From positions 62,001 through 126,000 of the forward strand of contig DPJG01000027.1 of NCBI GenBank assembly GCA_003543135.1: DNA of 64,000 bases, read 5' to 3'. This document shows positions 23,527 to 40,603 of the stretch, piece after piece; position 1 is the first letter of the stretch, and the number at the start of each line of letters is the position of its first letter. Under the pieces are notes generated by a model, which worked only from the letters and a program-made list of their open reading frames with translations, made no database searches and was not told the origin of the DNA. The DNA comes from Rheinheimera sp. Its GTDB lineage: Bacteria > Pseudomonadota > Gammaproteobacteria > Enterobacterales > Alteromonadaceae. The position numbers and the translations under genes were made by a program.

Positions 23527-23546
23527 CAGCTGACAGGGGGATAACC

Positions 23547-23966: not shown

Positions 23967-24255
23967 TCAGCAGCAACTGCAACAACAAATTTGCCAATTT
24001 GAAGCTTTGCTTGCTGCTGAACAGTATGACGAGGCTTGTAAGGCTTGTGTTGAAATTCAGCAGCATCTGATGTTATTTCAGCGCCAGGGCAATACGGCCG
24101 ATGTCGCTGACGACATCAGGGCGTTAAAATCCTTCTTTGATGTCAAAATTGAAGAGCTGAAAAAAAAACTACACCAAATCCAGATAACAGTTGCTTCCCT
24201 TGATCAGTTTCGCTCTAATAAAGTCAGTGAAGCTTATCAGAAGAATATTTTTTGA
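23956..24255 (+). CDS. FliT-like small flagellar chaperone
   Basis: A 99-residue helical protein starting MLADQQQLQQQ. Sequence similarity to FliT is weak, so the call rests mainly on position (immediately after fliS, overlapping by 11 bp), size, helical content and charge. FliT is the chaperone of FliD. A longer in-frame start at 23869 would run far into fliS and is unlikely. Its stop overlaps the ATG of the glycosyltransferase gene (TGATG). Confidence 0.65.
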   Translation: MLADQQQLQQQICQFEALLAAEQYDEACKACVEIQQHLMLFQRQGNTADVADDIRALKSFFDVKIEELKKKLHQIQITVASLDQFRSNKVSEAYQKNIF

Positions 24256-26348
24256 TGACAAATGATCTAGAAAAACAATTAGAAGAGCTCGAGGCAAAAT
24301 TGGCTCAGGTTGTTTTACAAGAAGAATGTGAAAAACAGTTTAGCGAAATATCTAAACGGCGATTTAGTAAAAATCTTGAAGCTTTTGAGAAATACTACCC
24401 TGAGATTTTTGAATCAATAAAAAATTATAAAAAGCGAAGTGACTTTAAGTTTATTGTAAGAACAAGTGACCTTGCCGACTTTGTACCCAGTGGACAAGAT
24501 ATTCCGCTTTATGGGGTGGATGTTCTGGATACTATCGAAAAACAGGTTGAACGTTATAGCAATAATGCATTTTTTAGCATGACCAAGTATGGATTTGGAG
24601 TGCAGAGTGATGATTATCGTATACACGTTAGGTATATGCATGCTTTAGATAATTTGTTAGCTGATTTTTATGGAAAAAAATTCACACCGATAAGTAAACT
24701 TCCAAAGCATTTTCCCAGTGCAATTATTTTTGGGGTAGGTTTAGGTTATCACATCCCTATGCTCCTTGAAAAACATACATTTGATTATTTGTTTATTTCT
24801 GAGCCTGATTTAGAACTTTTTTACGCTAGCTTATATTGTATTGATTGGTGCGAGATTATACATAAAATCGATATAGATGGTAGAACTTTGTTTTTACAAG
24901 TTGGTGTTAGCTATAAGGATTTTTTTGCAACGCTAAAATCAGTTGCGACTGACATTGGCGCTTTTTCTCTTGTTCGTAGTTATTGCTATCAACATTACCC
25001 ATCCACTGAAGTGAACGAGCTTATCAAAGAGTTTTTTGAAAGGTATGGTGACCTTCAGTTAGGGTTTGGCTTTTATAATGATGCGATTACAGGCTTTGCG
25101 CATGGCATTCAAAACTTGAATAATGGATATCCATTTTTTTATCGAACTAAAGAGAAAGTCAAACTACCTCATGTTGATATTCCTGCTTTTATTGTAGGTA
25201 ATGGGCCTTCTTTGGATGACGCTGCAGATTTGCTTCGTCAAATTAATGATCGAGTAATTATCTTCGCTTCGGGTACAGCGTTAGGGTCGTTGATAAAAAT
25301 GGGTGTGAATCCAGACTTTCATGTTCTTGTCGAGCGGCCAAAGTCGACTTATGACATACTTTTAGATACCCAGCCTAAAGAGATATATAAAAAATTTAAC
25401 TTACTTACAGTTGATGTGATGTATCCAGATGTGCTTGATTTGTACAATTGGGCCGGAGTTGGTTTGAAAGGCCCGGAAGCTTCGACATTTTTTATTTATC
25501 AACATGTAGGCATTAAAAAGCAAAAATTATTAATCCCATTGTCGAGTAGCGGACCGCTCGTTGTAAATACAGCTTTATCATACGCTGTGTCTATGGGTTT
25601 TAAAGATATTTATCTTGTTGGCGTTGATAATGGCTATATTAACCAAGCAACACACTCGAAATTTAGTATTTATGTTGATGAAAGCTTAGATATTGCAAAA
25701 ACAGTTAATAAAAATGCTCGCCATAAATTAGAAGGTAATTTTGGTGGAACCGTTATGGCTACAGATCTTCTTAGATCTGCGAAAATACAAATGGAAGGAC
25801 TAATTGCATCTTCGAAGGGGACTGTTTTTTATAATGTTGGTAATGGTGCGAAATTAAATGGGGCTTATCCATTAACAATAGACGATGTAATCTGCCCGCA
25901 ACAAGTAATAAATAAGAACGATATCGTTGATGGTATAAAAGAAAATCTCTTTATCGACTTGGATTTGAAAGTTGAATCTGATGATGTAGACTTTGCACTA
26001 TTTTCTGAAGTTTGTGAACATATGATTTCTATATGTGAGGAGCGTTACAGTTCAATAGCTGAGGCATCAGATTTGCTTAGGCGACAGGCGCGATATATTT
26101 ACGCATTCAGTAACACTAGGTGTGCATACATTTTTCACATGATTAAAGGCTCTCTTTTGTATTACCATTGCCCTATGATAACAATGCTTTATTCTTTTGA
26201 AGAAGAAGAGCAGACTCTACATTATTTTTCTAAAGCAATGGATTTGTGGGTTAAGTATTTGAAAGAAATTAAATCTGACTTTCCTGTAAACTGGAATACT
26301 AAATGTGACTGGGGGATGGACATGGAGTTTAAGTCTGTTCTGCAATGA
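24255..26348 (+). CDS. maf: Maf-type flagellin glycosyltransferase (motility associated factor)
   Basis: A 697-residue protein of the Maf/DUF115 family. The family core near residues 310-350 reads FIVGNGPSLDDAADLL then IIFASGTALGSLIKMGVNPD. Maf enzymes transfer nonulosonic acids (pseudaminic or legionaminic) to Ser/Thr of flagellin in the cytoplasm before export. The legionaminate genes at 29-38 kb fit this role. The coding sequence is much more AT-rich than the flagellar genes, a sign of separate origin. The ATG overlaps the preceding stop; a TTG one codon earlier is also possible. Confidence 0.88.
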   Translation: MTNDLEKQLEELEAKLAQVVLQEECEKQFSEISKRRFSKNLEAFEKYYPEIFESIKNYKKRSDFKFIVRTSDLADFVPSGQDIPLYGVDVLDTIEKQVERYSNNAFFSMTKYGFGVQSDDYRIHVRYMHALDNLLADFYGKKFTPISKLPKHFPSAIIFGVGLGYHIPMLLEKHTFDYLFISEPDLELFYASLYCIDWCEIIHKIDIDGRTLFLQVGVSYKDFFATLKSVATDIGAFSLVRSYCYQHYPSTEVNELIKEFFERYGDLQLGFGFYNDAITGFAHGIQNLNNGYPFFYRTKEKVKLPHVDIPAFIVGNGPSLDDAADLLRQINDRVIIFASGTALGSLIKMGVNPDFHVLVERPKSTYDILLDTQPKEIYKKFNLLTVDVMYPDVLDLYNWAGVGLKGPEASTFFIYQHVGIKKQKLLIPLSSSGPLVVNTALSYAVSMGFKDIYLVGVDNGYINQATHSKFSIYVDESLDIAKTVNKNARHKLEGNFGGTVMATDLLRSAKIQMEGLIASSKGTVFYNVGNGAKLNGAYPLTIDDVICPQQVINKNDIVDGIKENLFIDLDLKVESDDVDFALFSEVCEHMISICEERYSSIAEASDLLRRQARYIYAFSNTRCAYIFHMIKGSLLYYHCPMITMLYSFEEEEQTLHYFSKAMDLWVKYLKEIKSDFPVNWNTKCDWGMDMEFKSVLQ

Positions 26349-26377
26349 TGAATTTGAATATATTATAGGTTGATATC

Positions 26378-27691
26378 ATGACATTTATAAAAGCACCGCA
26401 GCCAGTTGATTACAATATTTTTTCTGCAAAAGAATTAAATTTGCAAACGAAATATGGTTTGCCTCACGATGTGAAATTCTGTAAAAAATGCGTAATATCT
26501 AACCAAAGACCAAACTCAGCCGTAGAGTTTAAACATACGGGTGAATCGAAAAAGAAAACTATTTATTTTGATGAGTATGGCGTATGCGACGCATGTAGGT
26601 TTGCCGAATCAAAGCATCATAATATTGACTGGGTTGAACGAGAAAGGCAACTTATAGCGTTGTGTGATCGATTCCGCAGCAGGAACGGCGCTTATGATTG
26701 TTTAGTCCCAGGTTCTGGCGGTAAGGACAGCTTTTATACCTCTCACGTCTTAAAATATAAATATGGTATGAACCCTTTAACTGTTACTTGGGCTCCGCAC
26801 AAATATACTGAGTGGGGATTTCGTAACTTTCAGGCATGGATTCATGCTGGTTTTGACAACTATCTGATGACACCAAACGGTAGAGTACATCGATTATTAA
26901 CAAGACTGGCCGTTGAGAAATTATTTCATCCTTTTCAGCCGTTTATTTTGGGACAAAAAAACTTAGCCCCTAAAATGTCTGCTCTATTTAACATTCCGCT
27001 TGTATTTTATGGAGAAAATGAAGCCGAATACGGAAACCCATTAGAAGACGCAAAGAAGGCAAAGCGCGACGCAAGCTTTTTTACCCAACAAGATTCTAAA
27101 GATATTTTTTTGGGCGGTGTGTCTGTGGATGAACTTACTACAGATTTTGCGATTCATCCTTCAGAACTGCAACCTTACCTGCCGATTAATCAGCAAGAGA
27201 TTAATAGAATCAACATGGAAGTTCATTATCTTGGTTACTATTTAAAATGGCATCCTCAGAGTTGCTATTATTATGCGGTTGAACATGGAGGTTTTGAAGC
27301 ATCGCCTGAACGAACTCCTGGGACATATAGTAAGTATAATAGTATAGACGATCGCATTGATGACTTTCATTATTATACTACGGGCATTAAATTTGGCATC
27401 GGTCGAGCTACTTATGACGCTGCACAAGAAATTCGGTCAGGTGATATTACACGAGAGGAAGGCGTCGCTTTAGTCAAAAGATTTGATTTAGAGTTTCCTG
27501 ATAGATTTGCTGAGGAAATATTTGACTATCTTAGTATCCACCCAAAAGAATTTCCACTAGCACATAAGATGTTTGAAAATCCAATTTTTGATAAGCAATA
27601 TTTTGATAGGCTAGCAGATAATTTTCGTTCTCCGCATTTATGGTTATATGAAAATAACCAATGGAAACTTCGTCATCATGTTTGGAAGTAG
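26378..27691 (+). CDS. pseA: N-acetyl sugar amidotransferase (PseA/WbpG family)
   Basis: A 437-residue ATP-dependent amidotransferase. It has a zinc-finger-like region with Cys35, Cys38, Cys70 and Cys73 (FCKKC, CDAC) and a PP-loop PGSGGKDS at residues 111-118 that adenylates the substrate. PseA and WbpG convert N-acetyl groups on sugars to acetamidino groups, using ammonia from a HisH/HisF-like pair. That pair follows at once (hisF-like after 6 bp, then hisH-like). The gene lies in the AT-rich cassette. The substrate here is more likely legionaminic than pseudaminic acid, given the neighbours. Confidence 0.87.
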   Translation: MTFIKAPQPVDYNIFSAKELNLQTKYGLPHDVKFCKKCVISNQRPNSAVEFKHTGESKKKTIYFDEYGVCDACRFAESKHHNIDWVERERQLIALCDRFRSRNGAYDCLVPGSGGKDSFYTSHVLKYKYGMNPLTVTWAPHKYTEWGFRNFQAWIHAGFDNYLMTPNGRVHRLLTRLAVEKLFHPFQPFILGQKNLAPKMSALFNIPLVFYGENEAEYGNPLEDAKKAKRDASFFTQQDSKDIFLGGVSVDELTTDFAIHPSELQPYLPINQQEINRINMEVHYLGYYLKWHPQSCYYYAVEHGGFEASPERTPGTYSKYNSIDDRIDDFHYYTTGIKFGIGRATYDAAQEIRSGDITREEGVALVKRFDLEFPDRFAEEIFDYLSIHPKEFPLAHKMFENPIFDKQYFDRLADNFRSPHLWLYENNQWKLRHHVWK

Positions 27692-27697
27692 TAATTT

Positions 27698-28459
27698 ATG
27701 AATGGAAAGCTGGCTCGTGTGATAGCTAGATTAGATATCAAAGCTCCGAATCTGATTAAAGGAATACATTTGGAAGGATTGAGGGTTTTGGGCGAGCCCA
27801 AAAAGTTTGCGTTTGATTATTATACTCAGGGTGTAGATGAAATTTTATACATGGACAGCGTTGCTAGCTTATATCAACGCAATAGTCTTCATTCATTATT
27901 AAGAGATTCAGTCGAGGAGATTTTTATTCCGTTCACGGTTGGTGGAGGAATTCGCTCGCTCGATGATGCAAAAGCTATACTGAAATTGGGCGCAGACAAA
28001 GTTGCCTTGAATACTGCTGTTGTAAAAAATGTTACTTTGTTAAAGGATATTTCGGCTGTTACTGGCGCTCAAGCGATTGTTCTTTCAGTTGAATGTAAAA
28101 AGCAAACGAATGGTTGGGAAGTTTACACAGACTGCGGTCGCGAAAGAACTGGTTTGGATGTTGTTGATTGGGTGAGAAATGCACAACAACACGGCATTGG
28201 CGAAGTGTTACTGACATCCGTTGACAGGGAAGGTACTAGGTCAGGTTACGACCTTGATCTACTCAATACAGTATCTGAGTCGGTGACATTACCCATTATT
28301 GCTAGTGGCGGCTTTGGAGGTTTGAATGATGCAGTTGACGCTCTAAATGTAAAAAATGTGACTGCAATTGCAATAGCGGATGCGCTTCACTATAAACGTT
28401 TTAGTGTTGGTCAAATTAAACGTCATCTATTGGAACATGGGTTTCAGGTGAGGCTCTAA
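27698..28459 (+). CDS. hisF: HisF-like cyclase subunit for sugar amidination
   Basis: A 253-residue (beta/alpha)8 barrel of the HisF family. Asp13 in RVIARLDIK matches the catalytic Asp11 of HisF. The second catalytic acid, Asp130 of HisF, is replaced by Glu132 in VLSVECKK. The phosphate-binding glycines are visible (GGGIRS, ASGGFG). In such clusters HisF acts as partner of HisH and PseA/WbpG to deliver ammonia rather than in histidine synthesis; this is inferred from context. Its stop is coupled to the hisH-like start. Confidence 0.85.
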   Translation: MNGKLARVIARLDIKAPNLIKGIHLEGLRVLGEPKKFAFDYYTQGVDEILYMDSVASLYQRNSLHSLLRDSVEEIFIPFTVGGGIRSLDDAKAILKLGADKVALNTAVVKNVTLLKDISAVTGAQAIVLSVECKKQTNGWEVYTDCGRERTGLDVVDWVRNAQQHGIGEVLLTSVDREGTRSGYDLDLLNTVSESVTLPIIASGGFGGLNDAVDALNVKNVTAIAIADALHYKRFSVGQIKRHLLEHGFQVRL

Positions 28460-29085
28460 TGCAGTTAGTTCAAGTTATCGATACAAAAAGCAATAATCTT
28501 TCAAACGTTTTGCGTGCTTTAGATCGTTGCGATGTCAAATACCAAGTTATTCAATTTGCAAATGAATTAGTGAAAGGAAGCTTAGTCGTGTTGCCTGGGG
28601 TAGGTGCATTCGGAAGTTGTCTAAATGAATTACAAGTTAATGGATTTTGCGAGCATTTAGTAACGCATTTAGCTGCTGGTGGTAAACTACTTGGTATATG
28701 TGTAGGAATGCAAGCTTTAGCAAGGAGTTCTACAGAGTTTGGTTTCCATACTGGTTTATCATTGATTGATGCAGAGGTCACCCGGCTAGCAAATTCAGAG
28801 AGTGCACCTATTATCGTTCCAAATGTAAATTGGTTACCTCTTGATAATGTTAGTGATAGATTCAAGCCTTTTGCTGGTAAGGCTATGTATTTTGTTCATT
28901 CGTATTTTATGACTAATTTTCGTGATCCGCATCAGTGTGCTGCTATCGTAAAATATTCTGGCATTGATATTCCTGCCATTATTGATTCAGGTAATATTAT
29001 CGGTTTCCAGTTTCACCCAGAGAAAAGTGGCGAAGATGGTCTGAGAATTCTACGCCACAGCATTGATTTACTCAGAGGTATTTAA
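28459..29085 (+). CDS. hisH: HisH-like glutamine amidotransferase for sugar amidination
   Basis: A 208-residue class I glutaminase. The triad is visible: Cys81 in GICVGMQ, and His186 and Glu188 in FQFHPEKSG. It should release ammonia from glutamine and pass it through the HisF-like partner to the amidotransferase. It starts where the hisF-like gene ends (shared base) and closes the AT-rich cassette. Its TAA overlaps by two bases the TAA of the convergent SDR gene on the other strand. Confidence 0.88.
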   Translation: MQLVQVIDTKSNNLSNVLRALDRCDVKYQVIQFANELVKGSLVVLPGVGAFGSCLNELQVNGFCEHLVTHLAAGGKLLGICVGMQALARSSTEFGFHTGLSLIDAEVTRLANSESAPIIVPNVNWLPLDNVSDRFKPFAGKAMYFVHSYFMTNFRDPHQCAAIVKYSGIDIPAIIDSGNIIGFQFHPEKSGEDGLRILRHSIDLLRGI

Positions 29086-29837
29086 ATTGTAAAACCATCA
29101 TCCACAATAATATTCTGACCGTTGATGTATCTGGCCTCGTCTGACAGCAGGAATAATACTGTTCCTGCCATACTTTGGGGCGGCAGCATGCCGGTGCCCA
29201 GGCATTTTCCCCGGTACTTTTCTGTAAATTCGACAGGTTGTTGGTCCAGAATACCGCCAGGGCTTATTACATTAACTCTAAAGTCGCTGTTGCCCACATA
29301 CTTGCAGACATACTTGCTCAGATGAATAAGCGCCGACTTGATAGCGGCGTATTCCACCGGCATGGTAAAAGCAACATCCTGATAGATATCAAATTCCGGT
29401 GCAACAACCCCATAAATAGAGGCAAAATTCACCACAGCTAACGGACGCTGATGCTCAAGGAAATATTTGGCGCAGCTTTGTAGCAGGAAAAATGATGAGC
29501 CAAGATTCAGTGCTACATTATCGTTAAAATCGTCCAGTGTGACGGCTAAAAAGTCGGTGCCATATTTTTTATTGCGCGGATAAATACAATTCACCACTCC
29601 GTCGATGTGCTGATACTGCGCAAAAAAAGCTGTGACCTGATCAGTGTTGGTTAAATCCAGCTGTATTAAATTCAGCGCCGGAACTGACAAATCCACACCG
29701 GCATCGCTCAGTCGTTGTTGTAATAAATCCAGGCTTAGATCACAGGCCAGCACCTGATGCCCGGCGGCCAATAAAGTTTTGACTATATGCTTGCCAAGCA
29801 GGCCGGCGGCGCCCGCCACCATTATTGTTTTAGTCAT
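29082..29837 (-). CDS. ptmA: SDR oxidoreductase, PtmA-like
   Basis: A 251-residue short-chain dehydrogenase. It shows the nucleotide-binding glycines (GAAGLLGKHIV), the NFAS motif region with Ser, and the catalytic YAAIKSAL (YxxxK). It is the last gene of the leg operon, next to legF, the same order as legF-ptmA in Campylobacter jejuni. PtmA is needed for legionaminate formation there, perhaps at the amino-sugar precursor stage, but its reaction is uncertain. Its start overlaps legF by 8 bp. Confidence 0.8.
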   Translation of the reverse strand: MTKTIMVAGAAGLLGKHIVKTLLAAGHQVLACDLSLDLLQQRLSDAGVDLSVPALNLIQLDLTNTDQVTAFFAQYQHIDGVVNCIYPRNKKYGTDFLAVTLDDFNDNVALNLGSSFFLLQSCAKYFLEHQRPLAVVNFASIYGVVAPEFDIYQDVAFTMPVEYAAIKSALIHLSKYVCKYVGNSDFRVNVISPGGILDQQPVEFTEKYRGKCLGTGMLPPQSMAGTVLFLLSDEARYINGQNIIVDDGFTI

Positions 29838-30531
29838 CCAATGCAGCTCCGTTTTTTAGCAGCGACTCAGCAAATAAAAAATCATAGATATCGTCAATAT
29901 CTACGGCCCTTTGCTTCGGTACTTCTACACTTGTGACTTTACCGGCAAAAAGCGCATTATTTTCAAGAATATAATTGACTCTGGCTGCATAGACCACAGT
30001 GGTAATATCAAAAGCTACAGGGGCGTCCTGCCGTCTTTTTATCGTTGGCTGATCGTTGATAAAAAGACAAACCTCGTCCGAGCCTTTGGGTTTAACCATA
30101 TTAAAGTAGGGGTTGCGGGCGGCCGGGGTCACGCCAATACAGATATCAGCCTTGCTGCTGTGCAGTCGTGTCAGAGCGGCCGTGACATCTTTGGCGGCGC
30201 GCAGTGGGCTGGTGGCCGGTAAGCTGACAAAGGTGTCAAACTGTACACCTTGTTGCTGAACGTAACGAATGGCATGTTGCCAGGCCAGCCATTCAGCAGC
30301 GGTATCACTGGCAAGTTCAGCCGGCCGGCGAATAACCAGCGCGCCAGCCGCTTTGGCAGCTGCGGCTATTTCATCACAGTCAGTTGATACATAAACTTTT
30401 GAAATTTCGGGAATTTGCTGTGCCACTTCAATGGAATAATGCAATAAAGGTTTGCCACAAAGCGGCTTGATATTTTTGCCGGGCAAACCTTTAGAGCCAC
30501 CGCGGGCAAACACAAAAGCAATCACACTCAT
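29830..30531 (-). CDS. legF: CMP-legionaminic acid synthetase (acylneuraminate cytidylyltransferase)
   Basis: A 233-residue NeuA/PtmB-type cytidylyltransferase. The N-terminal motif FARGGSKGLPGKNIKPLCGK binds CTP. It activates the nonulosonic acid to the CMP-sugar used by the glycosyltransferase. Operon context (LegI, LegG and PtmE-like genes) points to legionaminic acid rather than sialic acid. Starts 13 bp after the upstream gene's stop. Confidence 0.87.
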   Translation of the reverse strand: MSVIAFVFARGGSKGLPGKNIKPLCGKPLLHYSIEVAQQIPEISKVYVSTDCDEIAAAAKAAGALVIRRPAELASDTAAEWLAWQHAIRYVQQQGVQFDTFVSLPATSPLRAAKDVTAALTRLHSSKADICIGVTPAARNPYFNMVKPKGSDEVCLFINDQPTIKRRQDAPVAFDITTVVYAARVNYILENNALFAGKVTSVEVPKQRAVDIDDIYDFLFAESLLKNGAALDD

Positions 30532-30544
30532 AAAAACTCCGGCT

Positions 30545-31555
30545 TTAGCTGCCTTGTTGCTGTGGGGTTATCGGGCCAATACTGGCCTGCTGTTTGCCCT
30601 GTTCAATCAAAGTCAGGGTGCAAAGTGCATCGTCCACTGTGGCAAGTACTGTGCTGGTTGTGCCTGTCTGACTGAGCTGTTGCTCAAAGGCAGTCAGCAT
30701 CTGCAGATACATCTGGTTGCGCTGATATTCAGGTTCACTGAATAGCAGTTGTTGCTCAGAGCCGGTAAAGAGCCAGATGCTGTTTTGCACCAAGTCCCAT
30801 TCCAGCCGCGCCTCTGTGGTACTGATGGTACAGCGGCGCTGCACTGTTTTTTGCAGGAAATCCTGATGCAGGCTCACTGTGGCACCACTTTGGGTGCTCA
30901 TTAATAAATCAGCCTGATCTTCCACATCAATGTCCAGCAAACCGCTGTGCTGTAATTGGCTGTAATGCAGCTGCAGCGGGCCAAATAAATAATGCAGATA
31001 ATCCAGCTCGTGGCTCAGCTCCAGCAGCACACCACCACCGAGTTCAGCTCTTGCCGATACACTTTGCCGGTAGTCTTTGCCCGGCCGCCAGTCGGGCAGA
31101 TACTGAGCAACCTGACAGTTGATATGCAGCACCTTACCAAGGTCGCCGTTTTGCAAAATAGTTTTTAGCTGTTGCAGCGCAGGTAAAAATCTCAGGCAAT
31201 AAGCCACTGCCACAGGTGTTTGTGGGTTCGCCAGGCAAAGTTGCTGCATTTGTTGGCCATCGGCCAGGCTGGCTGCCAGTGGTTTTTCCACCAGCACCGG
31301 GATCTGCTTTGCCAATAAGGCGCACATAAAGTGCAGATGGCTGGACGCGGGGGAGGCCACAATACAATAATCGGGCTGGATACTAAGAAGCTCATCTGAG
31401 TGAGCTGGATATAAAATATCAGCATCACGCTCAGTTTCAGCGATAACACCGGTTGCACCCAGCCAGTAAAGTTGTGCATCGGGATGCAACAAACGCAGAT
31501 TGCTGATGTGGCGCCGGCCAATACTGCCAGCGCCAATCACCGCAATGTGTTTCAT
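30545..31555 (-). CDS. ptmF: Gfo/Idh/MocA-family oxidoreductase, PtmF-like
   Basis: A 336-residue NAD(P)-dependent oxidoreductase with the N-terminal Rossmann motif IAVIGAGSIGRRHISNLRLL and the EKP motif (VLVEKPLAAS) typical of the family. Position between the PtmE-like and LegF genes matches ptmE-ptmF-legF in C. jejuni. Its exact substrate is unknown; PtmF and PtmA are thought to help supply the glucosamine precursor. Its start overlaps the upstream gene's end by 4 bp. Confidence 0.78.
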   Translation of the reverse strand: MKHIAVIGAGSIGRRHISNLRLLHPDAQLYWLGATGVIAETERDADILYPAHSDELLSIQPDYCIVASPASSHLHFMCALLAKQIPVLVEKPLAASLADGQQMQQLCLANPQTPVAVAYCLRFLPALQQLKTILQNGDLGKVLHINCQVAQYLPDWRPGKDYRQSVSARAELGGGVLLELSHELDYLHYLFGPLQLHYSQLQHSGLLDIDVEDQADLLMSTQSGATVSLHQDFLQKTVQRRCTISTTEARLEWDLVQNSIWLFTGSEQQLLFSEPEYQRNQMYLQMLTAFEQQLSQTGTTSTVLATVDDALCTLTLIEQGKQQASIGPITPQQQGS

Positions 31556-32613
31556 GCCGGTAACCTTAAGTTATGCACGTCAATTTGGGCTCTTTGGTAG
31601 TCATCAATACGGCCTATGTCCAGCCAATATTCGTGGATAGGGAACATTGAGACTTTTTTGGTGAGCTCAATATTCTGTTCCAGCAAAGTTGGCATATCAA
31701 TGCGCTGATTGGGTTTCACCTGAGCACGCACTTCCGGATTGATCACATAAATACCGGCATTCACAAAAAGACGCTGAATGGGTTTTTCCACCATGCTGAG
31801 CACCCGCTCGCCGTCGCCGTTAATAACGCCAAAAGGAATTTGATATTCATAATCGCGTACACACATAGTGGCGTCCGAACGGCTTTTATTATGAAATTCC
31901 AGCAGTTGTTCAAAATCTACTGTGGTTAATAAATCACCGTTCATTAATAACACCGGCAGTTTGGGTGCATCAGGCGGCAGCAGGCCAAGGGCGCCGGCCG
32001 TGCCAAGCGGCAAATCTTCATAAATATATTTAATGCTGACGTTCCACTTAGAGCCATCGCCAAAATATTGCTGAATTTGCTCCGGCATATAATGCAACGA
32101 AATATAAAAATTATGAAAACCAGAACGGATAAAACTCAAAAGCACCAGTTCCAGAATAGGTTTGTCACCGACTTTGAGCATCGGTTTAGGGCAATCATTG
32201 GTCAGGGGTTTTAACCGGGTGCCAAAACCTCCGGCCATTAAAAACACCGGATTGTCATGCCTGAATTCAGGGAGCTTACGCTGCAGAATTTCAAGGTCAA
32301 CCACTTTGCCGTTTTCAAGCAGAGGAATAGACAACAAACCTTTGTCGTTCATCAGCTTGATCAGTTCGCGTCTGGATGTTCCGGTTTGGGCCGTCACCGG
32401 ATGAGCGTTCATCACGGCACTGACCGGGCTGTCCAGCGAGAAGTTTTTTAACAAACCACGGCGGATATCACCATCTGTGACCACCCCCAGCAGTTGTTGG
32501 GCTTCTGAGACCACCAGCGCAATACGCAAGGACGCCTGATCGATGATCTTCAGGGCATCACGGATAGAGCTGTCAGGGGCGATAAGGACTTGTTTCCACT
32601 TTTGTTCCATCAT
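31552..32613 (-). CDS. ptmE: Sugar-1-phosphate guanylyltransferase with CBS pair, PtmE-like
   Basis: A 353-residue protein with two CBS domains at the N-terminus (about 1-115; GVVTDGDIRRGLLK) and a nucleotidyltransferase domain (about 120-350; FLMAGGFGTRLKPLTNDCPK). This architecture matches C. jejuni PtmE, which makes GDP-glucosamine, the step that commits GDP-linked sugars to legionaminate. It is the best evidence that the pathway here uses GDP- rather than UDP-sugars. Confidence 0.82.
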   Translation of the reverse strand: MMEQKWKQVLIAPDSSIRDALKIIDQASLRIALVVSEAQQLLGVVTDGDIRRGLLKNFSLDSPVSAVMNAHPVTAQTGTSRRELIKLMNDKGLLSIPLLENGKVVDLEILQRKLPEFRHDNPVFLMAGGFGTRLKPLTNDCPKPMLKVGDKPILELVLLSFIRSGFHNFYISLHYMPEQIQQYFGDGSKWNVSIKYIYEDLPLGTAGALGLLPPDAPKLPVLLMNGDLLTTVDFEQLLEFHNKSRSDATMCVRDYEYQIPFGVINGDGERVLSMVEKPIQRLFVNAGIYVINPEVRAQVKPNQRIDMPTLLEQNIELTKKVSMFPIHEYWLDIGRIDDYQRAQIDVHNLRLPA

Positions 32614-32620
32614 GATGACC

Positions 32621-33271
32621 TCACATAACGATAAAGTGCCGTGCCGGATAAACTTTTTGCTGCTCTAGCAAATCACATACCAAAGTAGCGCCTGCTGCCA
32701 CCAAAGCTGCCTTGCCAATGGCGATATTCTGAATCACAGTGGCGCCGGCGCCGATAAACACCTGCTCGGCGCAGTGCACATTGCCGCAGAGCACAGCGCC
32801 TGGCGCCACCATCACATGGGCATCCAGTTTGCAGTCGTGCTCAATGACCGCAGCAGTGTTGACAATACAGTTCTCTGCAATCTGCACACCGGTATTGACA
32901 ATACTGCCGTCCAGAATTTGCACCCCTTCACCCAGGCTGCAGTAGGCCGACACCAATGCCTTTTCTGAAATGACACTGGCAAACTGGTACCCCATAGCTT
33001 TGAACTTATCAAAAATCTGCATCCGCCTGTGTTCACCGGGTAAGCGGCCGACGGCGTTCACCAGCAGCACGTCATTTGGTGAAAACTCACGCATTTGCTC
33101 GTCCTGGTGATATTGTTTGATGCTGGCAAAAGGGGCGGCTAACTGCGCTTTTTCGGCGCAAAAAATCGCGGTAGGGAGCTGATTTTGCCGCGAGAGAATA
33201 TCCAGCAGCACCCGGGCGTGGCCACCGGCACCAATCATCACCAGCTTTTTAGTTGTCGATAAGTTCGTCAT
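32621..33271 (-). CDS. legH: NeuD/PglD-family sugar acetyltransferase (LegH-like)
   Basis: A 216-residue acetyltransferase with an N-terminal Rossmann-like domain (KKLVMIGAGGHARVLLDIL) and a C-terminal left-handed beta-helix of hexapeptide repeats (GEGVQILDGSIVNTGVQIAE and following). LegH N-acetylates the 4-amino group after LegC. I chose ATG 33271, which gives the family N-terminus; an in-frame ATG at 33334 would extend 63 bp further into legI. It overlaps legI by about 23 bp. An O-acetyltransferase role like NeuD is an alternative. Confidence 0.78.
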   Translation of the reverse strand: MTNLSTTKKLVMIGAGGHARVLLDILSRQNQLPTAIFCAEKAQLAAPFASIKQYHQDEQMREFSPNDVLLVNAVGRLPGEHRRMQIFDKFKAMGYQFASVISEKALVSAYCSLGEGVQILDGSIVNTGVQIAENCIVNTAAVIEHDCKLDAHVMVAPGAVLCGNVHCAEQVFIGAGATVIQNIAIGKAALVAAGATLVCDLLEQQKVYPARHFIVM

Positions 33272-34334
33272 GCTGATAATCCCTGTGGATGGTGCTGCCA
33301 AGCAGTTGCCAATAATCAAATGGACTTTTGCCATCTCCCGGTCTTTTGCAGACTAAATCTTCGGCTTGAAAAGTTTCGCCTGCTTTCAGTGGCCGTGCCG
33401 CCACCAGCGATTTGCGAATAAGAGTGCGGTTTTTCAGCTCAGAAGGGGCGGGCTCCTTGCGGCCATGGCCCAGCACCAGCTCCACCTGACGAATACCATC
33501 CACCATGGCTTTGAGTTCAGCAGGCTCCAGCGATGCCTGATGATCAGGCCCGGGCAGGGTTTTATCCAAGGTAAAATGTTTTTCAATCACAGTGGCATCA
33601 CGGGCCACAGCGGCCATGGGCACCACAATGCCCTGGCTGTGGTCGGAATAACCAACCGCCAGGCCAAATTCCTGCCGTAAGCTATCCATGGCTTTTAAAT
33701 TAATGTCGGCAAAAGGCGCCGGATATTCGGTGGTGCAATGTAATAAGGTGACTTTTTGTTTCAGTTGCGCCTGGCCTGCAGCTGAGTGAAAGGCGCTGAC
33801 AAAGTCGGCACTGCTGGTTGGCAACTGAGTTGCTGGCGTGGTCATGCCATAAGCCAGTACACCCAGTGCATCCCGGATTTCGCTTAAAGTGCTGACACCC
33901 GTTGATAAAATAATATCGGCGCCGGTGCGGGCATATTGTAATAACAGCGGGGCATTGGTGATTTCACCAGACGGTATTTTCATCACCGGCAATCGCAGCT
34001 GGGCTAAAAACTGCAGGCTTTCGCTGTCAAAAGCGGTCGACATAAAACGGATGCCGAGCTCGTCACATTTTTTGATCAGCAGCAGATGGTCAGCATGACT
34101 GAGCTGCAGTTTTTTCAGCATATCCAGCTGATTGCCGTTATTTTGCGTATTTTCAGCTTGGTATTCTGCTTTTTTGGCTCTGTTCGTTACCAGTTGCTCA
34201 GCGTTGAAGGTTTGAAACTTCACCACATCAGCACCGGCGGCACTGGCCGCTTCCACCAGCTTCAAGGCCAGTTCTAAACTGCCATTATGGTTTACGCCGG
34301 CTTCGGCAATGATCAGGGTTTTGCTCATCAGCAT
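33249..34334 (-). CDS. legI: N,N'-diacetyllegionaminic acid synthase
   Basis: A 361-residue NeuB-family enzyme. It condenses the 6-deoxy sugar with phosphoenolpyruvate. The barrel domain starts TLIIAEAGVNHNGSLELALK; the C-terminal SAF antifreeze-like domain (about 295-355) includes ARPLKAGETFQAEDLVCKRP. The first ATG (34334) has AAGAG 7 bp upstream; MSKTLII from 34328 is also possible. LegI versus NeuB or PseI is decided by the surrounding genes, not by a residue I can point to. Confidence 0.87.
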   Translation of the reverse strand: MLMSKTLIIAEAGVNHNGSLELALKLVEAASAAGADVVKFQTFNAEQLVTNRAKKAEYQAENTQNNGNQLDMLKKLQLSHADHLLLIKKCDELGIRFMSTAFDSESLQFLAQLRLPVMKIPSGEITNAPLLLQYARTGADIILSTGVSTLSEIRDALGVLAYGMTTPATQLPTSSADFVSAFHSAAGQAQLKQKVTLLHCTTEYPAPFADINLKAMDSLRQEFGLAVGYSDHSQGIVVPMAAVARDATVIEKHFTLDKTLPGPDHQASLEPAELKAMVDGIRQVELVLGHGRKEPAPSELKNRTLIRKSLVAARPLKAGETFQAEDLVCKRPGDGKSPFDYWQLLGSTIHRDYQHDELIDN

Positions 34335-34342
34335 CTGCGCTC

Positions 34343-35482
34343 TTAATAAATATCAAAAAACTTTTTATGCGCAGTCAGAGGTAATTCCGCCAATAACCGG
34401 GCGACCGTCTGGCTGGTCTGTCCTGCGTCATAAGGGTTATCGGCGGCGCTCAGCAGATCTTTAGTCTGTAGTGCCTGTTGGATGGCATGGCTGATGGCCA
34501 AAGGCTCAGGCGGGCAATGCACTATATGTTTTGAACACTCGCGCCCTTGCTGGCGCACCCCAACATTTACTACAGGCACCGCCAGTGACGGAATTTCAAT
34601 AATGCCGCTGGAGGAGTTACCAATCACCAGCGCGGCATGGCTGACCACATCCAGATAACGATGGCCAAAAGATGCCACAGTTTTAACCTTGCTGTTGCTG
34701 GCTTGCCATTGCTGCAGCGCCTGAATAATCACTTTGCCGCCGTTGTCGGCATTGGGGTAACTTGCCACCACCGCATAATGTTGTTGGTTATCAAGCGCCT
34801 GGATCAGCGCTGCAATGCCGGCGGCCGGGGCTTCATCTGCGGCTGTCACCGGATGATAAGTTAAAAAGATAAATTTGCTATCAGGTGCCAGCCCCAAAAA
34901 CGCCAGGGTATCAGAGCGGCTGGCGCGTTGTTGGCCCCTGATATTATCCAGGCCAATAGCGCCCACATGAAACACCCGTTCCGGCGCCTCACCCAGCTGG
35001 ATCACTCTCTGGCGGTGCTGCAAACAGGACGTTGCATGGTAGGTACTCATTTTGGTGATGGCGTGGCGAATAGCATCATCATAAGCACCTTCGGTAATTT
35101 CACCGCCGTGCAGATGCATAATCGGGATTTGCATAATCAATGCGGCCTGCGCCATGCCAAGGGCTTCGTACCTGTCACCAAGCAGCACCAGCAGATCGGG
35201 TTGCAGCCGCTCCAGCGCATCGGCATAGCCAATAATGCCAAGGCCCAGGCTTTTCAGGGTGCCGACCGGGCTGTCGGACGATAATAAAGTTTCAATTTTG
35301 GCGGCGATGGCAAAACCATCCTGCTCAATACTTTGCACCGTATAACCATAATCAGGCGACAGGTGCATGGCTGAAACGATCAACTGCAGCTCAAGCTCAG
35401 CATGTTGCTGGATTTGTTTGAGCAGCGGGAATAATAATCCGTACTCAGAGCGGGCACCGGTAAAAACTGCAATTTTTCTCAT
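34343..35482 (-). CDS. legG: Hydrolysing UDP/GDP-sugar 2-epimerase (LegG, NeuC family)
   Basis: A 379-residue NeuC-type hydrolysing 2-epimerase. The N-terminus IAVFTGARSEYGLLFPLL and the motif LLGDRYEALGMAQAAL then MHLHGGEITEGAYDDAIRHA are characteristic. It removes the nucleotide and inverts C2, giving the free sugar for LegI. The start ATG is the last of four TCATG units spaced exactly 20 bp apart on the plus strand. RBS AAAGGAG lies upstream. Confidence 0.88.
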   Translation of the reverse strand: MRKIAVFTGARSEYGLLFPLLKQIQQHAELELQLIVSAMHLSPDYGYTVQSIEQDGFAIAAKIETLLSSDSPVGTLKSLGLGIIGYADALERLQPDLLVLLGDRYEALGMAQAALIMQIPIMHLHGGEITEGAYDDAIRHAITKMSTYHATSCLQHRQRVIQLGEAPERVFHVGAIGLDNIRGQQRASRSDTLAFLGLAPDSKFIFLTYHPVTAADEAPAAGIAALIQALDNQQHYAVVASYPNADNGGKVIIQALQQWQASNSKVKTVASFGHRYLDVVSHAALVIGNSSSGIIEIPSLAVPVVNVGVRQQGRECSKHIVHCPPEPLAISHAIQQALQTKDLLSAADNPYDAGQTSQTVARLLAELPLTAHKKFFDIY

Positions 35483-35558
35483 GCCTGGACTCCTTTACTC
35501 ATGGCTTTATTCCTTTTTTCATGCCTGCGCGACTTGACTCATGGCTGTATGCCGGGGG
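35479..35558. repeat. Four-copy 20-bp periodic repeat at legC/legG junction
   Basis: TCATG(C/G)CT recurs at 35479, 35499, 35519 and 35539, exactly 20 bp apart. On the minus strand each unit gives GCCATGA or GGCATGA. The first encountered contains the legC stop TGA and the last contains the legG start ATG. Confidence 0.8.
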
Positions 35559-36699
35559 CGACCGAACTTGGCAGATTCACCAGACGTTTGGCCAGCCATT
35601 CACTGTGGCTAAGGCTACCGCGCGGGCAATCTTTATACATGGGTAAATGATGCATCAGCTCCCACACTGGTCTGGTCATAATGCCATGGTCATTGCTGTG
35701 TTTGAGGAGCTGCTGTTGTTGCTGCTCATCGGCACAAATCACGGCATTTAACCAATAGCTGGATTTGGCGTAAGCAGGCTCAGCGACAAACTGATAATCG
35801 CTGTCTTGCAAAAAGCTTTGGTATAACCCGGCTAAAGCTCTTTTATTGGCAAGATATGAAGGTAATTTTGTCAGTTGGGCACAGCCTAAAGCCGCATTTA
35901 AATTGGGCAGGCGAAAGTTAAAGGCCACTTCGTCATGAAAAAACTGATAAGGATGAGCGACCTTGGCGGTGGTGGTGACATGTTTACAATGTACCCCATC
36001 CTCTATCTGCTGACAGAGCACCATACCGCCGCCACCTGTGGTGATTATTTTATTGCCGTTAAAACTTAAAGCGCCAAAACGGCCAAAGGTGCCGGTGTGT
36101 TGGCCACGATAAAAAGAGCCCAGACTCTCGGCGGCATCTTCTATCAGTGGCAATTGCCATTCACTGCAAATAGCAACAATTTCATCAAGTTGCACCGGGT
36201 GACCAAAGGTGTGCATAGGCACAACAGCGCCAATTTTTTGACCTGTGCTGCGAAGTACAGTGTTGCCGGCTGAATTTTTGCCGCATTGTTCGGTTAAAAA
36301 CTGCTGCAGCGCATCCGGGCATAAGCCGAGACTAATGGGCGACACATCAACAAAAGCCGGTGTGGCCCCCAGAAAATGCACGGCATTACAGGTGGCGACA
36401 AAAGTCAGAGCCAGGGTGATCACAATATCACCCTGGCCCACACCAGCCAGATGTAATGCAGCCTGTAAGGCTGCTGTACCATTGACGGTGGCAACAGCGC
36501 GGCTGCTCTGGCAAAAAACGGCCATTTCTTGTTCAAACTGGTCAACAAAAGGGCCGACGCTGGAGACAAAAGTACTGTCTAAACAAGCCAGCAGGCTGGT
36601 TTTTTCCGCATCATTAAACTGTGGCGCATGGAGTGGAATAGGGCCTGTGCTTTGATAAATGTCGCGGATAAAATTCAGCAGCGCTTTTGTGCCTGTCAT
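35539..36699 (-). CDS. legC: Sugar aminotransferase LegC (DegT/DnrJ/EryC1 family)
   Basis: A 386-residue PLP-dependent aminotransferase. The PLP lysine lies in LSFNGNKIITTGGGG; the acid region IEDAAESLGSFY is typical of the family. LegC aminates the 4-keto sugar made by LegB. It begins at the last base of the legB stop (TAATG), so the two are coupled. The C-terminus ends at an unusual 20-bp repeat before legG. Confidence 0.88.
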   Translation of the reverse strand: MTGTKALLNFIRDIYQSTGPIPLHAPQFNDAEKTSLLACLDSTFVSSVGPFVDQFEQEMAVFCQSSRAVATVNGTAALQAALHLAGVGQGDIVITLALTFVATCNAVHFLGATPAFVDVSPISLGLCPDALQQFLTEQCGKNSAGNTVLRSTGQKIGAVVPMHTFGHPVQLDEIVAICSEWQLPLIEDAAESLGSFYRGQHTGTFGRFGALSFNGNKIITTGGGGMVLCQQIEDGVHCKHVTTTAKVAHPYQFFHDEVAFNFRLPNLNAALGCAQLTKLPSYLANKRALAGLYQSFLQDSDYQFVAEPAYAKSSYWLNAVICADEQQQQQLLKHSNDHGIMTRPVWELMHHLPMYKDCPRGSLSHSEWLAKRLVNLPSSVAPGIQP

Positions 36700-37886
36700 T
36701 ACATTTTTCCATCCAGATATTTGCCGGTGTCCTGATGCATAAAACCCGGTAAAGTGGCAATAAATAATTTGACTATATCGGCCTTGTGCCAGACAGGTTG
36801 AGCTTTGATCTGGTTTATTTGTTGGTAAAAGTGCATCAGCTGCTGCTGATTATCAGCTGCGCTCTGGTGCAGCACGCCAATCTGCTGATAACTGTGAAAA
36901 TCCGGACTGTCCTGTTGCTCGTAAAATTCTTCGGCTTCTTTTTCGCCCGTGGTATCCGACGGACTAAAGACACAAGGCCATTGCCCCTGGGCCGGCAGTG
37001 TGGCCATTAAAGCGCGTGCTTCTTGTTCTGTGCTGCAGAGCTTTGGCGTAAAGCCGTGGTTTTTCAGAAACTTCTCCGCAATGCTTGTCATGCTGATCAG
37101 CTGGCTTTCATCCAGTTTGGGGAAATACACATCGCGGTTCTGACCAAAACAGCAGGACATAATACAAAGCACTGCGGCTTCATGGTCGGTAATAAAATAA
37201 CGTCTGATATCGCTGGGGGCTGCTAAAGGCTGTTGTTTTTGCAGCCGTTTTTCAAAGCCATGCAATAAGGAACCGTCGGAGAATGCCACATTGGCAAAAC
37301 GGGCGGTGGAGATGTTGATTTGGTCGCTGTAGCTTGCCAGCACCAGCTCCATAATACGTTTGGAGGCGCCCATCATATTGACCGGATTGGACGCTTTGTC
37401 GGTCGACACACAAAAGTATTTTTTAACACCGGCCTGCACCGACTGACGCAAGGTTTTTTCGGTGTTCAGAATATTCACGTCAATCATCCGCATCAGCGTA
37501 AAAACGTCTTTTTCGCTTCGCACATGTTTCAGCGCCGACAGGTTCAGCACATAGTCGTATTTGCCGTCGCTGCTGATAAACCTGTCATAAGCCAAAGAAC
37601 CGATATCAAGCGCCAGCGCCTGAAAATCAGCTGGGAAAATGTCAAAGCTGCTACGCAGGTCACGCACCAGCTCAACCAGATTATTCTCACTGAGATCAAC
37701 CAGATGTAGCTTGGCAGGTCCGTAACTCATCAAAAGCCGTGTGACGGCCTGGCCAATAGAGCCGGCGGCACCTAACACCAGACAGGATGAATTGCCAAGC
37801 AGGCTGCACAGTTTGTGATGATGGGCCTGTAAATCGTCGTCCAACATTTCAGATGGGCGGCCTAAATACTGTAAGACATTTTCCAT
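36699..37886 (-). CDS. legB: Nucleotide-sugar 4,6-dehydratase LegB
   Basis: A 395-residue extended SDR dehydratase of the FlaA1/PglF/LegB type. The nucleotide-binding motif is VLGAAGSIGQAVTRLL and the active-site segment is STDKASNPVNMMGASKR, where Met replaces the usual Tyr of YxxxK, as in PglF-like enzymes. It makes the 4-keto-6-deoxy sugar that LegC aminates. It is the first gene of the nine-gene operon. I see no sigma-28 or sigma-54 site upstream; a housekeeping promoter near 37915-37950 is possible. Confidence 0.87.
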   Translation of the reverse strand: MENVLQYLGRPSEMLDDDLQAHHHKLCSLLGNSSCLVLGAAGSIGQAVTRLLMSYGPAKLHLVDLSENNLVELVRDLRSSFDIFPADFQALALDIGSLAYDRFISSDGKYDYVLNLSALKHVRSEKDVFTLMRMIDVNILNTEKTLRQSVQAGVKKYFCVSTDKASNPVNMMGASKRIMELVLASYSDQINISTARFANVAFSDGSLLHGFEKRLQKQQPLAAPSDIRRYFITDHEAAVLCIMSCCFGQNRDVYFPKLDESQLISMTSIAEKFLKNHGFTPKLCSTEQEARALMATLPAQGQWPCVFSPSDTTGEKEAEEFYEQQDSPDFHSYQQIGVLHQSAADNQQQLMHFYQQINQIKAQPVWHKADIVKLFIATLPGFMHQDTGKYLDGKM

Positions 37887-38040
37887 AAAGCACTGACTTT
37901 TGGTTATTTGATTTTAAATCAGTCTATTAGAAAACTTATCAGGCGACAAACCCAAGCGCTGAAATCACTGCTGAGCTCAAGCGGGCGAAGTTGAACCGCG
38001 GGATTAGACAAAGTGTTTGTCAGAGGCTGCGGACAGGCCG

Positions 38041-38069
38041 TGGAACATCAGGTCAATGCGGCATATACT
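38041..38069 (+). promoter_or_regulatory. Possible sigma-70-type promoter of third flagellin
   Basis: TGGAAC, 17 bases, TATACT: a good -10 with a weak -35, about 33 bp before the GTG start. No sigma-28 or sigma-54 match was found in 37887-38102. Confidence 0.35.
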
Positions 38070-38102
38070 AAAACTCCCACTGCCGGAAAAAGGTAAGTTG
38101 CC

Positions 38103-38897
38103 GTGAAAATTAACACCAATATTGCTGCCGAGCCGCTCAGACAAAGCAAGATAGATTCAGACAATCTGCTCAAACAATTGGCCAGTGCCAGAAGAGTCAA
38201 CAGTGCCGCCGACGACGCTGCAGGTTTACAAATCATTGACCGGTTAACGGCGCAGGCCAACAGTGCCAGTCAGGGCATGCGCAATTTGTATGACGGTATA
38301 TCGCTGGCGAATGTGGCTGAGCAGACGCTTGCCGGCGTCAGTGATGGTTTAGCTGAGCTTGATAGTCTGACAGTACAGGCCGGCAACGGTGCTCTGACCG
38401 ATGCCGATCGTGCCGCCATTGCAGAGCAAGCTGCGCAAATCAGCAAGTCGATGCAACAACAAATCGACAACAGCAGTTTTGCCGGTGTGAAGCTGTTTGC
38501 CGAAGAGAAACAACTTGCCTTTAGCAGTGGCGATACGATTTTGAACCTGAAAACGCCGGGGCTTGACGGTGTGGTCAGTGGCAATGGTTTGGCTGCTATT
38601 GATTTTAATACGGAAGCTGGCCGTAGTGCGGCGCAAAATAGTATCCAAAGCCTGAGTAAAACAGTCAATGCCGCCAGGGCAGACTTAGGCGCAGGTGTGA
38701 ATACCTTTGCTGGCGCCGCACGTGGCCTTGCCAGCGCCAATGAAAATGTTAATGCCGCCCGCAGCCGGATTGAAGATTTGGATTATGCCAGTGCTGTGTC
38801 ACAGCAGGTCGCTAACGGAATAAAGGAACAAGCTGCTGTTGCAGTGAGCATCCAAGGCCGGATTTCTGCCGAACAGTCATTGAAATTATTAGCATAA
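38103..38897 (+). CDS. Short divergent flagellin (third flagellin)
   Basis: A 264-residue flagellin-family protein, about 65 residues shorter than the two major flagellins. It keeps the N-terminal ARRVNSAADDAAGLQIIDRL and the C-terminal NAARSRIEDLDYASAVSQQV regions. It has almost no central domain and ends SLKLLA instead of the usual ALSLL. The GTG start has AGGT 9 bp upstream. It lies alone between the divergent leg operon and flrA, closed by its own strong terminator. It could be a minor filament subunit or a regulatory or secreted flagellin homologue; function is unknown. Confidence 0.85.
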   Translation: MKINTNIAAEPLRQSKIDSDNLLKQLASARRVNSAADDAAGLQIIDRLTAQANSASQGMRNLYDGISLANVAEQTLAGVSDGLAELDSLTVQAGNGALTDADRAAIAEQAAQISKSMQQQIDNSSFAGVKLFAEEKQLAFSSGDTILNLKTPGLDGVVSGNGLAAIDFNTEAGRSAAQNSIQSLSKTVNAARADLGAGVNTFAGAARGLASANENVNAARSRIEDLDYASAVSQQVANGIKEQAAVAVSIQGRISAEQSLKLLA

Positions 38898-38926
38898 TTG
38901 CTTTTGCTGAAGTACCAGTCACCACC

Positions 38927-38968
38927 AAACGCTAATTTTTTGACACTAGCGTCAAAAAATTAGCGTTT
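38927..38968. terminator. Strong terminator after third flagellin
   Basis: A perfect 18-bp stem (AAACGCTAATTTTTTGAC and its complement) with loop ACTAGC and a short T tract. It insulates the flagellin from flrA. Confidence 0.85.
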
Positions 38969-38972
38969 TACC

Positions 38973-39000
38973 TTGCAAGCCTGCAATGCCTTTGTAAGAA
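38973..39000 (+). promoter_or_regulatory. Possible sigma-70-type promoter of flrA
   Basis: TTGCAA, 16 bases, TAAGAA, 31 bp before the flrA ATG and just after a strong terminator. A housekeeping-type promoter is expected for the master regulator. Confidence 0.35.
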
Positions 39001-39030
39001 TGAAAAAAAAGCAAAGAGCAGTGCCGCGCC

Positions 39031-40485: not shown

Positions 40486-40550
40486 CCGGCTTGTCAAATT
40501 TTTGGCTGGCATTTTTTGTTGTAACATCCTGAAAGTAATCTTTATTTTTA

Positions 40551-40569
40551 ATGGCACGCTTTGTGCTTT
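40551..40569 (+). promoter_or_regulatory. Sigma-54 promoter of flrBC
   Basis: TGGCACGCTTTGTGCT has GG at 40553-40554, ten bases, then GC at 40565-40566: near-perfect. It lies 38 bp upstream of flrB and is the expected FlrA target. Confidence 0.88.
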
Positions 40570-40603
40570 ACCCCGTTAGTATTTTTATCTGACGGGGACT
40601 TGT

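Follow-up and report, generated by a model that had tools for sequence, protein, structure and literature searches.

A nine-gene operon of the legionaminic acid class in a Rheinheimera flagellar locus and its probable product, 8-epilegionaminic acid

Which sugar is made by a complete nonulosonic acid operon that stands among flagellar genes, legionaminic acid (Leg) or 8-epilegionaminic acid (8eLeg)? This question is raised by a stretch of 64,000 nucleotides (hereafter the window), part of contig 4 of a 3,991,986-base Rheinheimera genome, in which nine minus-strand open reading frames (ORFs), packed close or overlapping, run from 37886 down to 29082 in the order legB-legC-legG-legI-legH-ptmE-ptmF-legF-ptmA. 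ORF positions and family scans agreed on these nine genes, in the order and place given by the original prediction, and the ptmE-ptmF-legF-ptmA order, which that prediction ascribes to Campylobacter, was seen in the ORFs of the window. Since the same operon, in the same gene order, recurs in many genomes, chance is excluded, and the presence of an entire legionaminic-class nonulosonic acid operon inside a flagellar locus is confirmed. The class and the setting first proposed were thus right, but the name of the product has to be revised: judging from sequence comparisons, the operon probably makes cytidine monophosphate (CMP)-8-epilegionaminic acid, with PtmF and PtmA inverting C8.

Two Escherichia coli loci served as anchors at the sequence level, one for an 8eLeg serotype (O108) and one for a Leg serotype (O161). 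The first locus (L070), with wzx/wzy annotated as O108, carries the nine genes of the window in identical order, and the O108 antigen contains 8eLeg, according to a title cited in PMC3628348; E. coli O61 has 8eLeg as well, with elg genes (PMC3628348). The second (L068), annotated as O161, holds LegB, LegC, a FemA/B-like gene, NeuB, NeuC, PtmE and a cytidylyltransferase; PtmF and PtmA were not found in this locus, its LegF is 38% identical to that of the window, and the Leg of the O161 antigen bears N-acetyl and N-alanyl substituents (PMC10609480), the latter of which would be in keeping with the FemA/B-like gene that replaces LegH. Because gene content and the kind of LegF match the O108 locus and not the O161 locus, 8eLeg is the likely product. 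Published reports on Acinetobacter and Vibrio fischeri provided further anchors. Acinetobacter loci with lgaABCDEFG are predicted to make Leg, and those with lgaABCDEF and elaABC, one of whose products (ElaA) is a putative oxidoreductase, to make 8eLeg (PMC9676051, with the sugars in its Table 7). The K locus of Acinetobacter LAC-4, an 8eLeg strain, has six extra ORFs, two of them oxidoreductases (PMC4345345). The O-antigen of V. fischeri has 8eLeg (PMC7940393), and relatives of PtmE, PtmF and PtmA are listed for this species (PMC4481668). The search for literature linking Pseudomonas aeruginosa O12 to 8eLeg found none. Strain PA7, reported to be of this serotype and to have 8eLeg, was not used as an anchor.

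Clusters containing PtmE were of two kinds. The loci compared, designated by L numbers, are genomic stretches of up to 20 kb, annotated with the window proteins and fetched around PtmE matches, LegB matches and PtmF-profile loci (the best 80 of 173). The PtmE-seeded places were 65 distinct ones (20 from the sample of relatives and 52 from the order sample, 7 being common to both), or 62 once L053, L054 and L195 (<45% identity) had been dropped. With kinds separated at 45% identity to the window LegF, 29 of the 62 had ptmF and ptmA with LegF at or above this threshold, 31 had neither gene with LegF below it, and two were mixed. Among 120 non-redundant rows, the 86 that have ptmF showed LegF identities to the window of 50.9-100%, and the 34 that lack it 26.8-38.2%, so that the two ranges do not overlap. 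LegF, PtmA and PtmE were close by in 76 of the 80 PtmF-seeded loci. The genus of the window holds both kinds, nine of its 11 positive genomes having ptmF and ptmA and two (L044, L051) having neither.

The phylogeny of the individual genes places this difference within the pathway. The six genes required were all present in 91 of 124 non-redundant places, with ptmF and ptmA in 64, neither in 26 and a mixed content in one (L108, unused); the trees comprised 64 clusters, namely 38 of the 64 and all 26. In this set, L066 (E. coli ECZP248), whose annotation splits the ptmA homologue into two overlapping parts (20798-21561), in contrast to the single gene of the O108 locus, was replaced by the latter, the two PtmE being at least 99.5% identical. 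On the LegF tree, the presence of ptmF and ptmA required a single change over the 64 rows, with a support of 100/100 and in all 200 bootstrap trees, the window and the O108 locus falling among the 38 rows and the O161 locus among the opposite 26; the branch that connects the two sides is also where one long row, L191, meets the opposite group. The same label required 17 changes on each of the LegB, LegC and LegG trees, 15 on that of LegI and 13 on that of PtmE, with shuffled means of 20.3-20.8. The upstream trees are mixed yet not free of the label, and a perfect split is found in LegF only. The fork therefore lies at LegF, and PtmF and PtmA belong with the last step. Near-fixed differences separate the two kinds of LegF (window kind first: F8/P, P105/Q, D175/R, T177/N, T178/G, V179/A). 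HMMER aligns P105 and T177 with Q104 and N175, respectively, of the Neisseria synthetase (1eyr), and a study on the catalytic residues of the Neisseria enzyme reportedly names Gln104 and Asn175 (PMC2901514). The LegF of the O161 locus retains the stretches lqptsplr and ngaiy of the Neisseria enzyme.

This linkage bears directly on another reading, in which the product is Leg and PtmF and PtmA act early, helping to make a hexosamine phosphate for PtmE. Such an early role was reportedly proposed for Campylobacter, which combines the ptmE-ptmF-legF-ptmA order with a sugar reported as Leg. The authors of the Plesiomonas work share this interpretation for their operon, placing PtmA in the opening segment of the pathway (PMC4481668). 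However, PtmE does not need these two proteins, since half of the PtmE-seeded clusters (31/62) have neither; PtmF and PtmA go with LegF, at the other end of the pathway, and the same genes are carried by E. coli O108, an 8eLeg producer. Moreover, two of the 80 PtmF-seeded loci, L088 (Legionella sp. km772) and L148 (Rhizobiales), hold ptmF-legF-ptmA with no PtmE of at least 40% identity nearby, a single 52-residue PtmE-like stretch being present in L088. A requirement of PtmE for PtmF and PtmA was thus rejected, on the strength of the 31 clusters and of these two loci where the block occurs without a full-length PtmE, and we consider Leg an unlikely product. In both loci the block adjoins distant relatives of LegC and LegG, and seems to be portable between nonulosonic acid pathways.

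Several points nevertheless weigh against 8eLeg as the product, or against inversion at the end of the pathway. Campylobacter has PtmF and PtmA, with a sugar reported as Leg. No Campylobacter record was present among the best 80 of 173 PtmF-profile relatives, so that the comparison uses the published identities between Plesiomonas and Campylobacter, which are 46% for PtmF, 36% for PtmA and 31% for LegF (C. coli; PMC4481668); the C. coli LegF therefore falls on the other (Leg) side although PtmF reaches 46%, and PtmF and PtmA alone need not mean 8eLeg. Ten Plesiomonas proteins, PtmF and PtmA thus included, are said to resemble O161 Leg genes (PMC4875605), in conflict with the O161-annotated locus; the O61 record may have been meant. 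Differences in the NeuB active site were taken to indicate different NeuB substrates in producers of 8eLeg5Am7Ac and of a Leg5Ac7AcAla-like sugar (PMC7371886), which would put the fork before LegI, acyl groups also differing between these sugars, while another report predicts CMP-Leg first and its conversion afterwards (PMC5595891). The sugar of Yersinia ruckeri O1 is called legionaminic in a review, and a Y. ruckeri locus that may be of this serotype (L124) is of the window kind. On the upstream trees, label changes as few as those observed occurred in only 10 (LegB), 9 (LegC), 19 (LegG), 0 (LegI) and 0 (PtmE) of 200 shuffles. Finally, the two mixed places break the rule: in L046, LegF is of the other kind (37%), PtmA is represented by a relative at 45% and PtmF only by a distantly similar gene at 23%, and this cluster may make a third sugar; L155/L108, an Aliivibrio metagenome-assembled genome, has PtmF and a window-kind LegF without PtmA. 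In the latter, an ORF resembling RmlB, by eye, follows legF. Among the 80 PtmF-seeded loci, L108 and L131 are the incomplete ones; in L131, transposase-like ORFs (also by eye) follow ptmF instead of legF and ptmA.

The nucleotide on which the early steps run was also reconsidered. LegB matched PDB entry 3pvz, named uridine diphosphate (UDP)-N-acetylglucosamine (GlcNAc) 4,6-dehydratase, over its full length (527.7 bits), and its signature, STDKASNPVNMMGASK from residue 161, reads STDK...Mx3K instead of Yx3K; Mx3K was found in LegB of 66/66 rows with ptmF and 27/27 without. It is the signature of PglF and WbpM, whose characterised members act on UDP-GlcNAc (PMC8987622). Guanylyl-, uridylyl- and thymidylyltransferase models all scored PtmE below their cut-offs, the best being the guanylyltransferase (131.1 bits, cut-off 440). 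Profile TIGR04180, the Campylobacter LegB family, gave no match to the window LegB. Because LegB is a PglF/WbpM-like Mx3K dehydratase that this profile does not match, the guanosine diphosphate (GDP) route in the original label is not established. Early steps on UDP-sugars, with PtmE making a UDP- or other nucleoside diphosphate (NDP)-sugar rather than a GDP-sugar, would be compatible with an 8eLeg product; the substrate of the characterised Mx3K enzymes and the PtmE scores, which leave the base unsettled, argue for it, but a dedicated nucleotidyltransferase beside LegB in both kinds of cluster would have no task in a pathway starting from ordinary UDP-GlcNAc, and the top PtmE model is that of a guanylyltransferase. 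We regard this route as a genuine contender, slightly less probable than its opposite. The presence of PtmE in both kinds speaks for a special nucleotide sugar, without indicating its base.

The 8-epi configuration could alternatively be fixed at the start of the pathway, if LegB inverted C5, as is known of the PseB-type members of its Pfam family, 8eLeg matching a hexose with inverted C5. However, LegB has Mx3K in both kinds of cluster, its tree is mixed, and the PseB model scores it at 65.6 (cut-off 407.75). Inversion by LegB was rejected as the source of the 8-epi configuration on account of the first two results, and appears highly improbable. A pseudaminic acid (Pse) pathway was likewise rejected in the genome itself: none of five PseB-model matches exceeded the cut-off, and LegI, the sole NeuB match (one PF03102 match), scored 477.4 as NeuB versus 259.4 as PseI (cut-off 340.25).

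From a mechanistic point of view, the 8eLeg product would be reached as follows. LegB would dehydrate an NDP-GlcNAc without inverting C5, LegC would aminate C4 and LegH acetylate, after which LegG would invert C2 and free the hexose, and LegI would condense it with phosphoenolpyruvate into Leg5Ac7Ac. PtmF and PtmA, oxidoreductases of the nicotinamide adenine dinucleotide (phosphate) type, would then invert C8 by oxidation followed by reduction from the opposite side; this step is placed after LegI because the C8 hydroxyl should be free once the nine-carbon acid is made. LegF, of the epimer-adapted kind, would activate 8eLeg with CMP, the PseA-like/HisF-like/HisH-like trio would turn one acetamido group, at position 5 or 7, into an acetamidino group, and Maf would transfer the sugar onto flagellin. 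PtmA scored 311.6 with PRK09186 (cut-off 255) and 174.9 with NF050062 (below its 350), and has the signature Y163-x3-K; in PtmF, E90-K91-P92, E179 and H182 are invariant over 48 rows. Structure searches gave only distant relatives of PtmE and PtmF. With about even confidence, we propose more broadly that the flagella of Rheinheimera, Plesiomonas and other Gammaproteobacteria with ptmF-legF-ptmA carry 8eLeg, in an acetamidino form here, that PtmF and PtmA form a two-enzyme C8 epimerase acting on the free acid before the adapted LegF, and that the block is a swappable Leg/8eLeg ending.

The coordinates of the operon and of its neighbours are collected in Table 1.

Table 1. Operon genes and neighbouring features in the window, with predicted functions and family scores.
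Feature	Coordinates	Strand	Prediction and support
legB	36699..37886	-	NDP-GlcNAc 4,6-dehydratase of the Mx3K (PglF/WbpM-like) kind, C5 retention expected; PF02719 143.2 bits
legC	35539..36699	-	LegC-family aminotransferase; TIGR04181 511.6 bits (cut-off 420)
legG	34343..35482	-	Hydrolysing NDP-sugar 2-epimerase (NeuC-like); TIGR03568 431.7 bits (cut-off 235.9)
legI	33249..34334	-	Nonulosonic acid synthase (NeuB-like); TIGR03569 477.4 bits (cut-off 399.65)
legH-like	32621..33334	-	N-acetyltransferase (NeuD/PglD family); TIGR03570 194.2 bits (cut-off 160.8)
ptmE	31552..32613	-	CBS and sugar-1-phosphate nucleotidyltransferase (predicted); PF00483 and 2 CBS stretches
ptmF	30545..31555	-	Gfo/Idh/MocA oxidoreductase, one of two putative partners in C8 inversion; PF22725/PF01408
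legF	29830..30531	-	CMP-nonulosonate synthetase of the ptmF-associated kind; PF02348 (CTP_transf_3)
ptmA	29082..29837	-	Short-chain dehydrogenase/reductase (adh_short_C2), second putative partner in C8 inversion; PF13561 109.9 bits
maf	24252..26348	+	Flagellin nonulosonate transferase (predicted); NF050051 63.8 bits (below cut-off 670)
pseA/wbuX-like	26378..27691	+	N-acetyl sugar amidotransferase; TIGR03573 373.2 bits (cut-off 203.2)
hisF-like	27698..28459	+	Ammonia-channelling partner; TIGR03572 250.8 and TIGR00735 246.1 bits (both below cut-off)
hisH-like	28459..29085	+	Glutaminase; TIGR01855 151.1 bits (above HisH cut-off 105.4)
Amidotransferase cassette	26321..29080		Without counterpart in L036 and L037 (blastn, L036)

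The listed legH ORF overlaps legI by 86 bases (33249-33334), and its real start may be a later ATG, about 60 bases further in. On the plus strand, FlaG-, FliD-, FliS- and Maf-like genes are followed by the amidotransferase trio (26378-29085), which runs up to ptmA; family matches around the operon, several of them below curated cut-offs, thus uphold the flagellar locus with an adjacent amidotransferase set that had been announced. At the far end, a short flagellin ORF (38103-38897, plus strand, 264 residues, GTG start) diverges from legB and is conserved in position in L036, L037, L107, L115, L121 and L123 (44-94%). It is 31% identical to the longer flagellin ORF.

A sugar destined for lipopolysaccharide (LPS) or capsule, the flagellar setting being incidental, would accord with 21 of the 30 PtmE-seeded places with ptmF, whose fetched stretches lack any flagellin-, FliD-, FliS- or Maf-like gene. 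By contrast, maf, the only MptE-like match of the genome (one PF01973 match), sits between fliS and the operon, and the layout in which fliS-maf faces the operon with the short flagellin beyond it is repeated in the same six loci, the trio being present in L107 and L123 only among these. Such a destination is thus quite improbable, and delivery to flagellin is favoured.

Close relatives differ in whether they have the trio between maf and ptmA. L036 matches the window at 20171-26320 and 29081-41310 (blastn), 92 bases standing in L036 for the 2.76 kb between, and the trio is also missing in L037, these two being the nearest relatives; in L107 (Arsukibacterium perlucidum) and L123 it is found at the corresponding site, with a PseA-like protein of 78% identity, whereas L115 and L121 have no trio at this site. 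The G+C content is 35.3-41.2% in maf and the trio, versus 46.0-52.5% in the operon. The WbuX-type amidotransferase stands beside HisF-like and HisH-like genes, the arrangement expected of an acetamidino set; the histidine HisF of the genome lies elsewhere (contig 8, 358.1 bits), the HisF-like gene of the window being a second copy. This present/absent cassette suggests an acetamidino form of the sugar; the LPS of Aeromonas salmonicida contains 8eLeg5Am7Ac (PMC7371886). The window Maf is 70-71% identical to those of L036 and L037, which share 85% with each other, while FliS is 96-100% identical, L036 having 70% for Maf and 100% for FliS; a divergence of Maf where the trio is present would fit its adaptation to an amidino sugar.

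The operon had been described as notable for a Gammaproteobacterium of this kind, and this rarity was not supported. Counting the genome itself throughout, a PtmE relative was found in 11 of 22 searched genomes of the genus and in 20 of 79 in the whole sample of relatives (E up to 1e-30), as well as in 50 of 394 genomes of the order sample (E up to 1e-60), and in the class sample 10 of 369 genomes had a LegB relative (E up to 1e-60). Among named relatives, Rheinheimera sp. 4Y26 comes nearest at this locus (PtmE 98%; L094 and L036 denote one and the same locus), and the same genus group provides loci of R. texasensis (L136/L050) and Rheinheimera sp. 1928-s (L126/L048). The operon type is already known, from Plesiomonas flagella, where it has been published (PMC4481668), and from the E. 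coli O108 O-antigen.

These results matter for the naming of flagellar sugars. Leg, 8eLeg and Pse derivatives are isomers of equal mass, so that names given to such sugars on the basis of mass spectrometry and gene content may be wrong, and the flagellin mass test first put forward would not separate them; mass distinguishes only diacetyl forms (316 Da residue) from acetamidino ones. The rule based on LegF, ptmF and ptmA offers a sequence test of Leg versus 8eLeg, names candidate C8-inverting enzymes and allows a clear assay in environmental bacteria. Literature pairing "epilegionaminic" with "flagellin" gave no report of 8eLeg on flagella in the available text (PMC7371886, PMC3628348), the spelling "8-epi-legionaminic" being outside this search.

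Known systems help to situate the operon. In Acinetobacter baumannii, a reductase/dehydrogenase pair, EpaA/EpaB, inverts C8 of Pse to give 8-epipseudaminic acid; EpaB belongs to PF13561 as PtmA does, and EpaA combines a cytidylyltransferase with an aldo-keto reductase, unlike PtmF, which is of the Gfo/Idh/MocA family (PMC12053666). A phage search with PtmA returned 23 records, the 12 matches listed having 23.1-31.9% identity and none of them being annotated EpaB, and none of the 24 records of a plasmid search with PtmF exceeded 60% identity. The E. coli O108 locus shares its gene order with the window (LegF 58%, PtmF 40%, PtmA 52% and LegB 61% identical) and differs in its O-antigen use, neither maf nor the amidotransferase being matched within the stretch retrieved. 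Another E. coli locus (L067/L202, strain S30) has an O-antigen cluster of the 8eLeg kind followed by genes named after the O8-family ABC transporter, two O-antigen loci thus lying side by side. The O161 locus has relatives of LegB, LegC, NeuC, NeuB and PtmE (43-59%), and is unlike the window in the points described above, namely PtmF, PtmA, LegF and the place of LegH. Campylobacter jejuni and C. coli share the ptmE-ptmF-legF-ptmA order, together with flagellar use and acetamidino forms, but differ by a LegB of another family and by an acetamidino group made by PtmG. The C. coli LegF is only 31% identical to that of Plesiomonas, versus 70-74% for those of E. coli and V. fischeri (PMC4481668). 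Plesiomonas shigelloides 302-73 differs from the window by an extra GlmU-like acetyltransferase and, in the text available, by the lack of an amidotransferase trio, and its sugar was named Leg from mass spectrometry and genes, with no mention of nuclear magnetic resonance in that text (PMC4481668). It is otherwise like the window, its nine genes being identical in kind and order and flanked by polar flagellar regions, with a LegB of 395 residues; its flagellin carries nonulosonic acids of 316 and 358 Da, and its ptmA, legH and legF mutants are without flagella (PMC4481668).

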